DNA of 64,000 nt from Symbiodinium natans. Taxonomy: Eukaryota > Sar > Dinophyceae > Suessiales > Symbiodiniaceae. Positions within the stretch are counted from its first letter, which is position 1. The number at the start of each line of letters is the position of its first letter. The notes beneath the pieces are model-generated. The model was given only the letters and a program-made list of their open reading frames with translations, made no database searches and had not been told where the DNA came from. Below are positions 1 to 64,000 of this stretch, one piece after another. The stretch spans positions 186,001-250,000 of the forward strand of contig CAJNDS010002394.1 of NCBI GenBank assembly GCA_905221605.1, given 5' to 3'. The position numbers and the translations under genes are program-made.

Positions 1-78
1 GGGTTTAGGGTTTAGGGTTTAGGGTTTAGGGTTTAGGGTTTAGGGTTTAGGGTTTAGGGTTTAGGGTTTAGGGTTTAG
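1..78 (+). repeat. TTTAGGG telomere-type array at window start
   Basis: About eleven uninterrupted TTTAGGG units open the window. A left chromosome end would read CCCTAAA on this strand, so this is an interstitial array and not the chromosome terminus. Confidence 0.95.
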
Positions 79-1236
79 CCCTGCCCTCCGTATTTCAGGA
101 GACTTTGGCAGAGTGCGATTTGCGGAGCCTTGAAGCCCAAAGCCTTACTGTGCGCCTGTCGAGTTCTCTTTATCTTTCTCATTCTGTCTCTCTGTCTCAC
201 TGTCTTTCTCTGTATCTTCACCCTCTCGGTGTGTACATATATATGTTTTGTGCATACACTTCTAGAGAGAGACAACAATTTATTTAGGCTTGGGAGGCCT
301 TAGTCAGAAATGGGATATAGGTTCAGGTTGCAGTGCCTTCTGGGGTTTGAATCTTAGGACCTAGGTTTCAGGCTGTTGGCTGAAAGGCTTGCTGGGGCTT
401 GAGTCTAGGGTTTGCCTGAGCCCCAGATCCTTGAAGCCCTATGAATCTGTCAGAATCAGGCTAGGTTTTGGACCAGGGGACCCACCGTCATCCAACAGTA
501 GATGAAGCTCCAAGTCGCAGCTAGGAATGGGCCCTTCGTGTAGTCCCCTACACTTGTTTAAAGGGACCTCAAAGGGATCCGAAGTATGGGCCCCTTCTTG
601 TGTACAGTGTGTATAGAGGTTATACAACCGGGACCATAATTAAGGGCCCATACTTCGGATCCTCTTAGGGCTTACAGGGCTTAAGTCCCTGCAGCCGGTG
701 CGTGGGTTTAGGACCCTAAACCCTAAGCCCTAAACCGTAAGGTCCCTAAGCCTGAATACCCTAACCCTCCCCGAAAACACATAGTGAGACCCAGCCCAGC
801 TCAAAAGCCCGAAAGCCCCGTACTCCAAACCACCCGGTTTAGGGTTTAGGGTTTGGGGTTTAGGGTTTAGGGTTTAGGGTTTAGGGTTTAGGGTGGTAGC
901 CCAGTGGTACCCTTTTGCCTTGTTTTGGCTCAAGGTTCCCTTATGAAGCCGCCCCAAACAAAGGGTGCCCGTTTTTTGGTACGGGTACCTGGGCTACCCA
1001 GGTTCTGAACATCTGCACCCTGAAGTCTGGGCCCCGAGGTTTCGGGCCACCACCCTAAACCCTACATCCTAAACCTTCAATCCTAAACCCTACATTCCCC
1101 CACATTCCCCTACATCCGAAACCCTAAGCCCTAAGCCCTAAACCTGAAACCCTAAACGCTAAATCCTAACATCCGAAACCCGAAACCCAAGCCCTAACAT
1201 CCGAAACCCTAGAATCTCGAGATTCCAAACCCTGAG
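79..1236. other. Non-coding stretch with telomeric tracts and foldback elements
   Basis: No convincing exon is seen. The stretch holds a pyrimidine-rich TCTC patch (150-225), an inverted repeat with 19-bp perfect arms (575-593 and 644-662), a second TTTAGGG array (838-893), a family A foldback (about 895-1010) and degenerate CCCTAAA units (1050-1215). Confidence 0.6.
575..662. repeat. Inverted-repeat element, 19-bp perfect arms
   Basis: The left arm GGATCCGAAGTATGGGCCC (575-593) is matched exactly by its reverse complement at 644-662 around a 50-bp loop. It resembles a MITE or foldback insertion. No second copy was recognised. Confidence 0.8.
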
Positions 1237-4200
1237 GTCGTGACCTGGGCGGACCTCTTGGATGATCCCTCCGAGATGGCAGCTCAGGTTCGCAACTTGT
1301 TTGTTTAGGGTTTAGGGTGTAATTAGGGTTTAGGGCTTGGGGTTTATAGGGTTTGGGGTTTATAGGGTTTGGGGTTTAGGGTTTTGCAAAGCTCCTAGCC
1401 TTAAATGGGCATTTCCCAAAATAGAATTACCCTAACTATGGCTGAGGGTTGGGGGTTGGGGTGTTTTTGTAGAAGATTGCGCTCTCACCCCTCCTTGCCG
1501 CGAAGAACTACCATGGCTCTGTGTGTGGGAGTTGGGGCAAGGCTGTAGGACACTGCAGGATCTTAGCGGTTAACGGCCACGCAAGGCAGATGACTCATGT
1601 ACCCCCTCTATACTACCCCACCTAGGTTCCCCCCATAATTAAGGCTACTTCGGATAATCGAGCCTCATTAAGGGTTATTTAAGAGGGGAACCTAGGGAGT
1701 ATAGAGGGGGTAGTAGGGAAACCCATGAATGACGTGAGGGTGAGGCACGTCTTAGGACCCATGTCAACGACGACTCATGTGTCGCCATTTTCCTAAACTG
1801 GAACCCCTGGAACCCTAAACCCTAAACTTACTAAACCCTGAACCCTGAACTACCCTAAACCCTTAACCCCCTAAGCCCGAATACCTAAACCAGCTCTGAA
1901 CTGCCCTCACAACCACCTCAACGTAGCCCTATACTCAAACCCAAAAGATCCTTGAAGCCTAAATGCAGTTTAGGGTTTAGGGTTTAGGGTTTAGGGTTTA
2001 GGGTTGAGCCCCAAAGCCTTTAACCACAAAGCCATGCTTCAGCACAGCTTGCTTTGAGCAGAGTCCCCTCCCGAGAGATTGCGGTTGCCCTGCCCTGGCC
2101 AGGCTGCAACCAGCACCACCTCTATCTGGCACGGCGCTGAGGTCTTTTCTTTTTTTGGTAGGGGTTTAGGGTTTGGGGTTTTGGGTTTAGGGTTTAGGGT
2201 TGAGGGTTGAGGGTTTAGGGTTTAGGGTTTAGGGTTTAGGGTTTGGGAAACTGCAGCTATAACAGGTTGTCATCTTACTTTGGGGCACTAGCAATGCTAC
2301 TCTAAACGGCCCATGAGCCTTCAAGTAGGCTTCAGGCGACATCCGAAAACCCTCCTTGAAGTGACGGTCAGTGCGCTTGTATGGTTTAGGATTCTGGGTG
2401 CTGTACCATAAACTCGCTTGAAATCCAAAGTTGAACCTTGCAAGCTATCTTATGATTAGGGTTTCGGAACTAGGGTTTAGGGTTTAGGGTTTGGGGTTTA
2501 GGGTTTAGGGTTTAGGGCCTCGGCTGAGGCAGACGAGCAGCAGCCAGGACGCGGCACCTATGTGCCATGGCACCAGATGCTCAGTTCTTGTGGGACTCAG
2601 GCAAGCTTGGGTTTCACAGGGCTTACTACTACTGTTTGCTTAAGAACCCCCCTGAAAAGAATAAAAACAATGATCTCAATGTTTCCCTTATCTATTTTTT
2701 GGTGGTTCTTCAGCAGTTCGTGGATTGGGGAAAGACGGATGAGTTTAGGGAAGTATGTTCAGGGAGCTTGTTACGCCAGACGACAGGGCACGGAGTCCGA
2801 AACCCTAAATCCTTGAGACACAAAAGCTCACAACCAGCTCTTCGGAATGCCCCTACTATAGTATGCTCCGTACTGTTCAGGGCACCACAAATTAGAGGGA
2901 CCCATCAACGATCGCATGACCACTAAACCCTGCCTACCTCATGCTCAACCCTAAACCCTCAGAACACACCCTAGAGTCGCAGGCGTTCAGGGGGCATTTG
3001 CTGCCTATACATAAATGCCTGGACTACAACCGCACACCCTAAATCCTAAGCCCGAAACAGCAAACCTTGCCGCTCCCTTTGGGATTCGCCATTCTGTGGG
3101 CTGTTCCATAGCTCTTAGTGTACCAATATGCAGGGCCTCCGATTTGAAAGCAATGCCGAAACCCAAAATGCCATAGCGTCGACCTTCAGCCTTGAACACC
3201 ACGGCTTCTTCCTTAAACCCGGAACCCTGAACAACCCCCTTTCCTCTGAACCCTAAACCCTAAACCCTAAACCCTAAACCCTAAACCCTAAACCCTAAAC
3301 CCTAAACCCTAAACCCTAAACCCTAAACCCCCGACATGAGGTCTGCAGAGGCCTTCGCGGCATTCGTCCGCTCCTCGACGACCGCAGCCTGCACTGCACC
3401 TGGCCCGAAGATGACGGGTTTAGGGTTTAGGGTTTAGAGTTTAGGGTTTAGGGTCCTGAATGTGTGTTGCGTGTGCGAAACAGGGTTTATATTACCAGTA
3501 CCCCAAGCGGAGCAACAATGCGCACAGGTACACTCACCTAAGTTTCTAGGGAACCTAAAGTTAGACTCGTGTCATGTGGCTCCAGAATTGAGGGTTTAGG
3601 GTTCAGAGTTTGAAGAGTTTCTAAGGGTGGTTTCATGGGCCCTTTGGCTTTGTAGAGTACATGAGGGGGTATGTAAGGGGTCCCCGCTTAAGGGCCCACA
3701 TTAAGGGACCATGTAACTACCCCAGGAGAGTTTAGGGTGAAGGGTTCAGGGTAAAACCAACGCCAAAGGGGAAAAACACAAAACAGAAAAACCGAGGGCA
3801 GCTGTCGGATGCCACCGGTGGGATTGTGGTTCTTCTGTTGGACGGTTTGGGCTGTCGAGCTTGGAGTTTAGGCTTCAGGGTGTAGCGTAGCACCATCATT
3901 GCCCCAAGGCCCCTGAATTCCCTAAACGCTTAAAGCCTCAATCAACCCTGGCTAAACCCTAAACCCGAAACCCTACACCCTAAACCCTAAACCCTGAAGG
4001 GATTTTTCACGTTGTCCTTTATTGGGATGAAGAAGATTCTAATTATTTTGGAACATGTTTCAGGGGGTTTTCAACTTGGCCAACCTAGAGCCCTAACACC
4101 CTAACACCCTAACACCCTGACCCTAAACCCTAAGCCCTGAATCCTGAACCCTAAACCCTAAACCCTAAACCCTGAACCCTCCTTCATCCCAAAGCCCCCT

Positions 4201-63860: not shown

Positions 63861-63946
63861 GTAGGGTTTAGGGTTTAGGGTTTCGGGTTTAGGGTTGAGG
63901 CCCCAGCCTATGCATGGCCGAAACTCTCCCAAGGTTCAGGGTTGCC

Positions 63947-63977
63947 TTTTTTTTTTTTTTGGGGGGGGGGGGGGGGG
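63947..63977 (+). repeat. T(14)G(17) homopolymer junction near window end
   Basis: A T run passes directly into a G run. It is the last of the eleven tracts in the window. Confidence 0.95.
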
Positions 63978-64000
63978 AGGACGCTAGCCGATCTATAGAT

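Follow-up and report, generated by a model that had tools for sequence, protein, structure and literature searches.

A 64,000-nucleotide stretch of the Symbiodinium natans genome (the window, comprising positions 186,001-250,000 of a 448,918-bp contig) is filled with short arrays of TTTAGGG and its complement CCCTAAA. In array-rich genes these arrays are oriented by the exons, with CCCTAAA to the left of a coding segment and TTTAGGG to its right, such that introns tend to begin with TTTAGGG and to end with CCCTAAA. What we observed is the arrays, how far they lie from the splice sites, a preferred orientation in each of two genes (Prp8, on contig C1079, and a steroid-reductase-like gene located in the window) and, across the genome, an asymmetry at exon-sized gaps. 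The orientation amounts to a preference of about 3:1 rather than a strict rule. TTTAGGG is taken as the telomere unit of the host from reports on other dinoflagellates. With respect to cause, we hold open both retention of a splicing-compatible orientation and the healing of breaks by telomerase. The account we favor, to which we give a nearly even chance, is that ordinary dinoflagellate spliceosomal introns (GT/GC/GA-AG) have been loaded with exon-centered interstitial telomeric arrays, of which those in the splicing-compatible orientation have been kept.

Array orientation in homology-fixed introns

The window holds 1000 exact TTTAGGG or CCCTAAA units compared with 37.4 expected (shuffle sd 5.9), spread over positions 1-64,000 in 264 clusters of alternating orientation (483 TTTAGGG and 517 CCCTAAA units). 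The window lies inside its contig and the arrays are thus internal, i.e. interstitial telomeric sequences; a chromosome-end telomere was rejected for the same reason. Switches from minus (CCCTAAA) to plus (TTTAGGG) clusters tend to coincide with exon-sized gaps. The 71 segments with CCCTAAA to the left and TTTAGGG to the right have a tight, exon-like length distribution (median 114 bp, quartiles 92-141), and the segments in the reverse order, also 71 in number, have a median of 139 bp.

Segments at 31.8-34.4 kb that look like coding sequence match 3-oxo-5-alpha-steroid 4-dehydrogenase (Pfam PF02544, E 7e-14; PDB 7bw1, E 1e-7), and a protein search returned 58 homologs of this SRD5A-like gene, the named ones including proteins of Effrenium voratum, Prorocentrum cordatum, Durusdinium trenchii and Polarella glacialis. 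Using all 58 in tblastn, with the alignments of six inspected, revealed ten exons (A-J) on the + strand over about 19.0-34.8 kb, each 61-94% identical to the homolog P0001. Eight introns were fixed by hand from the reading frame and homology; the ninth junction, C|D, was dropped because residues are missing there. Exon A (19045-19122, start approximate) is the weakest, being supported by short tblastn matches to P0002 (E 0.56) and P0003 (E 0.14) together with the frame, and the 9732-nt GT-AG intron A|B (19123-28854) depends on it. In that intron TTTAGGG occurs 8 nt past the donor and CCCTAAA ends 28 nt before the acceptor, with mixed order in between. Two similar single-exon open reading frames (ORFs) lie in tandem on the + strand inside the inferred intron A|B (21456-23162, 568 residues; 24672-26453, 593 residues), with no Pfam family over the cut-off.

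The other exons are placed by tblastn homology, and the array order in the introns between them is given with + for TTTAGGG and - for CCCTAAA clusters. Exon B (28855-28928) is followed by the GC-AG intron B|C (28929-29425, order ++---) and by exon C (29426-29513, end approximate), after which about six residues, perhaps a micro-exon, are missing ahead of exon D (30439-30483, start approximate). Intron D|E (30484-31544, GC-AG) has the order ++--+ and lacks CCCTAAA within 80 nt of its acceptor; it leads to exon E (31545-31619), the short intron E|F (31620-31854, GC-AG, order +-) and exon F (31855-31909). Intron F|G (31910-32967, GC-AG) has the order ++++---- and is followed by exon G (32968-33045), intron G|H (33046-33640, GA-AG, order ++-) and exon H (33641-33721). 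In intron H|I (33722-34263, GC-AG, order ++--) a 17-bp direct repeat spanning the acceptor brackets the final CCCTAAA array (34194-34246); exon I (34264-34357), intron I|J (34358-34740, GT-AG, TTTAGGG only) and exon J (34741-34839, including the stop codon) complete the gene. The seven introns shorter than 1.1 kb hold 93 exact units, of which 90 are on the expected side of the midpoint, TTTAGGG in the first half and CCCTAAA in the second; the outer 100 nt contain 41 units in the expected orientation and none in the opposite one. When introns of equal length were placed at random in the window, each independently, 2 of 20,000 draws showed as strong a bias; shifting the block as a whole gave 0 of 1,562. 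The claim, made previously from the window alone, that exons are bracketed by CCCTAAA and TTTAGGG is thus borne out, the inverted order in homology-fixed introns exceeding that of random placement.

Prp8 provided a second gene, in which 32 introns were fixed with human PRPF8 as guide (a sequence checked in part). The first 22 junctions were chosen by top score, with GT/GC/GA and AG given extra weight, and those at q89 and q108 needed a one-residue length difference; the gaps q128-155 and q276-304 were excluded before counting, as were q1973, q2061 and q2180, which fall below half the maximal score with GT/GC/GA-AG. The outer units of the Prp8 introns number 67 in the expected and 29 in the opposite orientation, a bias reached in 203 of 20,000 random placements (1%). 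Nine unit-free Prp8 introns have a donor-end strand skew of 0.02, compared with 0.35 in 21 with units. Intron q1877 (741 nt) has no telomere units and forms a single long foldback, in which positions 27-631 match their own reverse complement at 76% identity, as would be expected of an introner.

Pooling the eight SRD5A-like and 32 Prp8 introns gives 40, of which 26 contain internal telomere-unit arrays (median length 364 nt) and 14 no exact unit (median 110 nt). Within 80 nt of the donor the first unit is TTTAGGG in 17, CCCTAAA in 5 and absent in 18, and within 80 nt of the acceptor the last unit is CCCTAAA in 14, TTTAGGG in 5 and absent in 21. Where present, units start a median of 27 nt past the donor and end a median of 20 nt before the acceptor; in the 14 introns with CCCTAAA in that acceptor-side stretch the acceptor lies 5-46 nt beyond it. 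TTTAGGG precedes CCCTAAA in 12 of the 13 introns holding both orientations. In a permutation of cluster order the observed score of the 12 such introns below 2 kb was unmatched in 50,000 trials; adding the 9.7-kb intron gave p 0.023, and Prp8 alone 0.024.

The donors of the pooled introns are GC in 22 (55%), GT in 10 (25%) and GA in 8 (20%), with AG acceptors, proportions that are partly by construction as the Prp8 junction solver preferred GT/GC/GA-AG; AGG across the acceptor, which was not part of the scoring, occurs in 39 of the 40. These values are close to those reported for S. natans CCMP2548 (donors GT 23.6, GC 58 and GA 18.4%; AGG acceptors 97.1%; mean exon 106 bp, mean intron 486 bp, GC content 51.8%; PMC10666404), consistent with dinoflagellate spliceosomal introns. 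The original prediction had instead taken the donor GT to be that of GTTTAGGG, so that the arrays themselves would supply the donor and the AG-proximal end, a form that we regard as scarcely credible and rejected because it fits none of the 40 donors. The wording it gave is found at 12 of its 13 listed positions, GTTTAGGG being present at eight of the nine coordinates in its first group, whereas the ninth, 19393, reads GTTTAGGT. Such agreement comes readily, since nearly every array offers GTTTAGGG (434 occurrences in the window compared with 483 + strand TTTAGGG). Two of the 13 donors, 31936 and 19393, fall in the gene with fixable introns and both fail: the former lies 27 nt inside intron F|G, the real donor of which is the GC at 31910, and the latter is inside intron A|B, insofar as exon A is correct.

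Genome-wide asymmetry and predicted folding

In the genome of 759,417,921 bp (2,543 contigs), TTTAGGGTTTAGGG occurs 1,788,098 and 1,787,600 times on the two strands (3.58 million overlapping 14-mers), compared with 257 + 280 = 537 for the reversed-pattern control. We searched for two tandem units, a gap and two opposite units, counting start positions, such that long arrays count several times. At gaps of 100-130 nt there are 194,914 starts for CCCTAAA..TTTAGGG and 60,787 for TTTAGGG..CCCTAAA, whereas at 300-330 nt the two are nearly equal (143,516 and 134,098). Together with the inverted order of arrays at intron ends, this asymmetry at exon-sized gaps supports that part of the original prediction.

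The same holds in 272 kb of fetched sequence (window included), where the pair ratio falls from 4.0 at 100-150 nt to 0.6 at 300-350 nt, and where a spacing of 70-160 bp is seen for 154 of 234 adjacent clusters in CCCTAAA-to-TTTAGGG (C-to-G) order but for 76 of 229 in G-to-C order (Fisher 2e-12). A codon model trained on two ORFs of the window was applied to 20 stretches outside it, four of which adjoin the window and two of which hold Prp8. C-to-G gaps of 60-200 bp (n=117) have a median coding score of 7.9, compared with 5.3 for G-to-C, 5.2 for C-to-C and 5.4 for G-to-G (p 2e-6 or less). CCCTAAA-exon-TTTAGGG reads alike on either strand, so the test is independent of strand. Array density is very uneven along the genome, with three of the 20 fetched 10-kb stretches (L022, L023 and L028) holding 0-2 telomere units; these array-poor stretches have few or no long ORFs.

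The two ends of an intron RNA had also been proposed to pair. Minimum-energy folds of seven introns, with 12 or 30 dinucleotide shuffles per intron as control, agree with this for five of them, in which 52, 29, 83, 99 and 45 pairs are predicted to join the outer parts (up to 150 nt), compared with shuffle means of 7-17. Introns D|E and I|J depart from it, having no excess of end pairing (8 versus 18.6 and 8 versus 21.3 in shuffles). The case for end-to-end folding is suggestive only.

Origin of the arrays and of their orientation

The favored account supposes that arrays arrive in introns by insertion or expansion of telomeric repeats, and that orientations compatible with splicing are then retained. 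With TTTAGGG pointing away from the exon on both sides, the intron RNA would carry UUUAGGG in its 5' part and CCCUAAA in its 3' part. The latter, having no G, would place no decoy AG or donor ahead of the acceptor while supplying CUAAAC and pyrimidines, whereas UUUAGGG would set G-runs beside the donor but also create decoy UUUAG|G acceptors, and so may be tolerated early and not late in an intron; the complementary halves might in addition let many introns fold. It is this difference in AG and donor content between the two repeats that leads us to favor insertion or growth coupled to a splicing filter.

Several observations weigh against this account. A splicing filter would be expected to act close to the splice sites, but the interior arrays are sorted as well; nor does the decoy-acceptor argument predict a bias of about the same strength at the two intron ends, as is seen. 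Both features are poorly explained by a filter and fit break healing better. GGGTTTAG likewise offers decoy donors, and the arrays are dispensable for splicing because the 14 introns lacking any unit are spliced. Prp8 is less regular than the SRD5A-like gene, with + before - in five of six introns holding both orientations (one being reversed) and just 85 of the 156 units falling in the half predicted for them. As to folding, flipping the 3' half, which leaves both halves in one orientation, gives a clearly weaker predicted fold for G|H and H|I alone; B|C folds more strongly after it (-178 versus -157 kcal/mol). In F|G and H|I the route from one intron end to the other is also longer than in the shuffled controls. 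In kinesin exons the bias is weak: the nearest unit has the predicted orientation in 8 of 13 cases upstream and 7 of 11 downstream (p 0.15).

The kinesin sample comprised 40 exons in 34 stretches, hand-picked as short stop-free open frames from 98 genome matches; two exons (L031 and L032) were off-rule but kept, being in the same stretch, and at least one rule-meeting exon (C1879:1111955) was omitted. No unit lies within 450 nt upstream of 27 of the 40 exons or downstream of 29, and some flanks look reversed, as judged without both intron ends. Given the weak kinesin trend and the three array-poor stretches, the pattern is a feature of array-rich genes and not a universal one. Some kinesin motors among the genome-wide matches lie in a single long exon and others are split into short exons, the unsplit copies being as expected if retroposed.

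Alternatively, the order may have been set at birth, as in a telomere fusion: a double-strand break would be capped by telomerase on both sides and rejoined, the left side gaining (TTTAGGG)n and the right (CCCTAAA)n, so that an exon resembles a capped mini-chromosome and some repairs would create introns. We consider this a serious possibility, although a doubtful one. From such healing one would expect the order that is seen, equally at both intron ends, and also, if breaks recur in mid-intron, nested clusters such as ++++----. In intron q89 of Prp8, (CCCTAAA)9 is flanked by two copies of coding sequence and spliced GA-AG; it looks like a recent insertion and accords with such healing. In-register exact repeats across intron boundaries average 3.3 bp, compared with 2.6 bp in re-paired introns (0 of 2,000), and intron starts slightly resemble the following exon (identity 0.30 versus 0.26, p 0.004); exon ends do not clearly resemble intron ends (p 0.09). 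A precedent exists in primates and rodents, in which interstitial telomeric repeats are reported to have been inserted at double-strand breaks, sometimes with target duplications (PMC2246262). On the other hand, most opposite arrays are separated by unique DNA rather than abutting, single-orientation arrays are common (several Prp8 introns have one such array each, some at the wrong end), and flanking duplications of at least 12 bp occur at 10 of 699 arrays versus 8.9 expected with random spacers. A general enrichment of target duplications was set aside, as 24 arrays with at least 11 bp exceed the 1.1 of re-paired flanks but the comparison with random spacers is 10 versus 8.9; clear single cases such as Prp8 q89 do occur. 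Array purity could be compared between young and old for 2 versus 2 cases only. The stronger proposal, that repair of this type is a major source or shaper of introns, with broken coding sequence capped outward and rejoined so that the inverted array becomes or enlarges an end-pairing intron with its splice sites drawn together, appears unlikely to us.

The original prediction had further suggested an introner-like mobile element, which the evidence so far does not support; a mobile element or miniature inverted-repeat transposable element (MITE) with telomere-repeat terminal inverted repeats, inserted many times and bringing its own splice sites, seems to us decidedly improbable. Such an origin would fit reports of S. 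microadriaticum introners with inverted ends and 4-bp target duplications (PMC9860276) and of Amoebophrya introners that form end-to-end hairpins (PMC7789003). Inverted repeats of at least 8 nt join the outer 60 nt in 13 of the 40 introns, 11 of them telomeric, but re-paired ends give 7.4 on average and up to 15, and the published 30-nt inverted-repeat rule picks out 4 of the 40, compared with 2.5 for re-paired ends. Once the arrays are masked, sequence found in more than one place accounts for 14% of TTTAGGG-to-CCCTAAA gaps versus 5-8% of the others; however, no shared core dominates in 264 kb of masked sequence, which thus lacks the many body copies of an introner, the flanking duplications do not exceed background, and array offsets and lengths vary, with arrays of one orientation frequent. 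Copying of one intron half onto the other as a palindrome was rejected, the halves of array-bearing introns being non-complementary outside the arrays except for short palindromes in a few introns. Short-repeat arrays are in general hard to assemble, but an assembly or composition artefact is hardly believable given the 3.58 million 14-mers versus 537 reversed, exons between arrays that keep frame with dinoflagellate homologs (P0001 at 61-94% identity by exon) and the contrast between gaps of 100-130 and 300-330 nt, which misassembly leaves unexplained.

Other window features, related systems and significance

Exons resembling those of a flavin adenine dinucleotide (FAD)-dependent oxidoreductase lie at about 57650-63862 (+) and run on into the stretch L010; stitched together, they match Pfam DAO at E 1.4e-4, under the cut-off, and a protein search found no homologs at E 0.001. 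Pfam searches with two further stitched exon sets of the window, and with stitched bracketed exons from other stretches, gave nothing above the cut-off, and no known RNA family matched the window at the gathering score. Short dispersed repeats, some palindromic by eye, are common to sites in the window (8915-9051, 44146-44278, 54860-54959, 12485-12600 and others) and to other stretches. Some ORFs of the window, e.g. 28551-28964 and 43362-43718, run through arrays as GLGFRV, with NPKP-like peptides on the opposite strand. Gene models that miss GC or GA donors may contain such array-encoded peptides.

The introns described here share end-pairing inverted repeats, non-canonical donors and dinoflagellate hosts with the introners reported from Amoebophrya, Prorocentrum, Polarella and Symbiodinium (PMC7789003, PMC10666404, PMC9860276). 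They differ in that their inverted repeats are variable-number tandem telomere units, in that no common body was found and in target duplications that do not exceed background; published screens that rely on simple inverted repeats at the ends of introns might class some of them as introners. Mammalian interstitial telomeric sequences at double-strand breaks (PMC2246262) are likewise internal telomere-unit arrays, whereas here they are enormously numerous, gather in the introns of array-rich genes and take their orientation from the position of the exons. In plants, telo boxes are reported as single units near genes, commoner in 5' untranslated regions (UTRs) and the first two introns, and a telomerase spread model has been proposed for them (PMC3022908). 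The present arrays comprise several units within introns of coding regions, and opposite arrays at both ends of internal introns, as opposed to the single promoter or 5' UTR units of telo boxes. Among the papers listed by literature searches on telomeric repeats together with introns, introners or dinoflagellates, no title or abstract opening describes telomere arrays oriented at intron ends.

Head-to-head telomere fusion scars, such as human 2q13, consist of a G-strand array followed by a C-strand array. The array order is the same here, although it recurs in many introns and unique DNA separates the arrays. G-run intronic splicing enhancers are G triplets just downstream of donors. TTTAGGG places G triplets in a like position, but the C-rich mirror on the acceptor side falls outside that class, and for our introns the likeness is one of sequence only. 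Roy et al. 2023 (Curr Biol) reportedly concerns dinoflagellate introners.

If the overall reading is correct, very many exon-sized gaps of this genome (194,914 starts at 100-130 nt alone) would be bracketed by the chromosome-end repeat in a preferred orientation, linking telomere repeats to gene architecture and splicing and providing a transposon-free route to intron gain or growth. The arrays would also serve as a simple exon predictor where non-canonical donors mislead gene finders. On that reading, some dinoflagellate intron hairpins that have been counted as introners may be telomere arrays.

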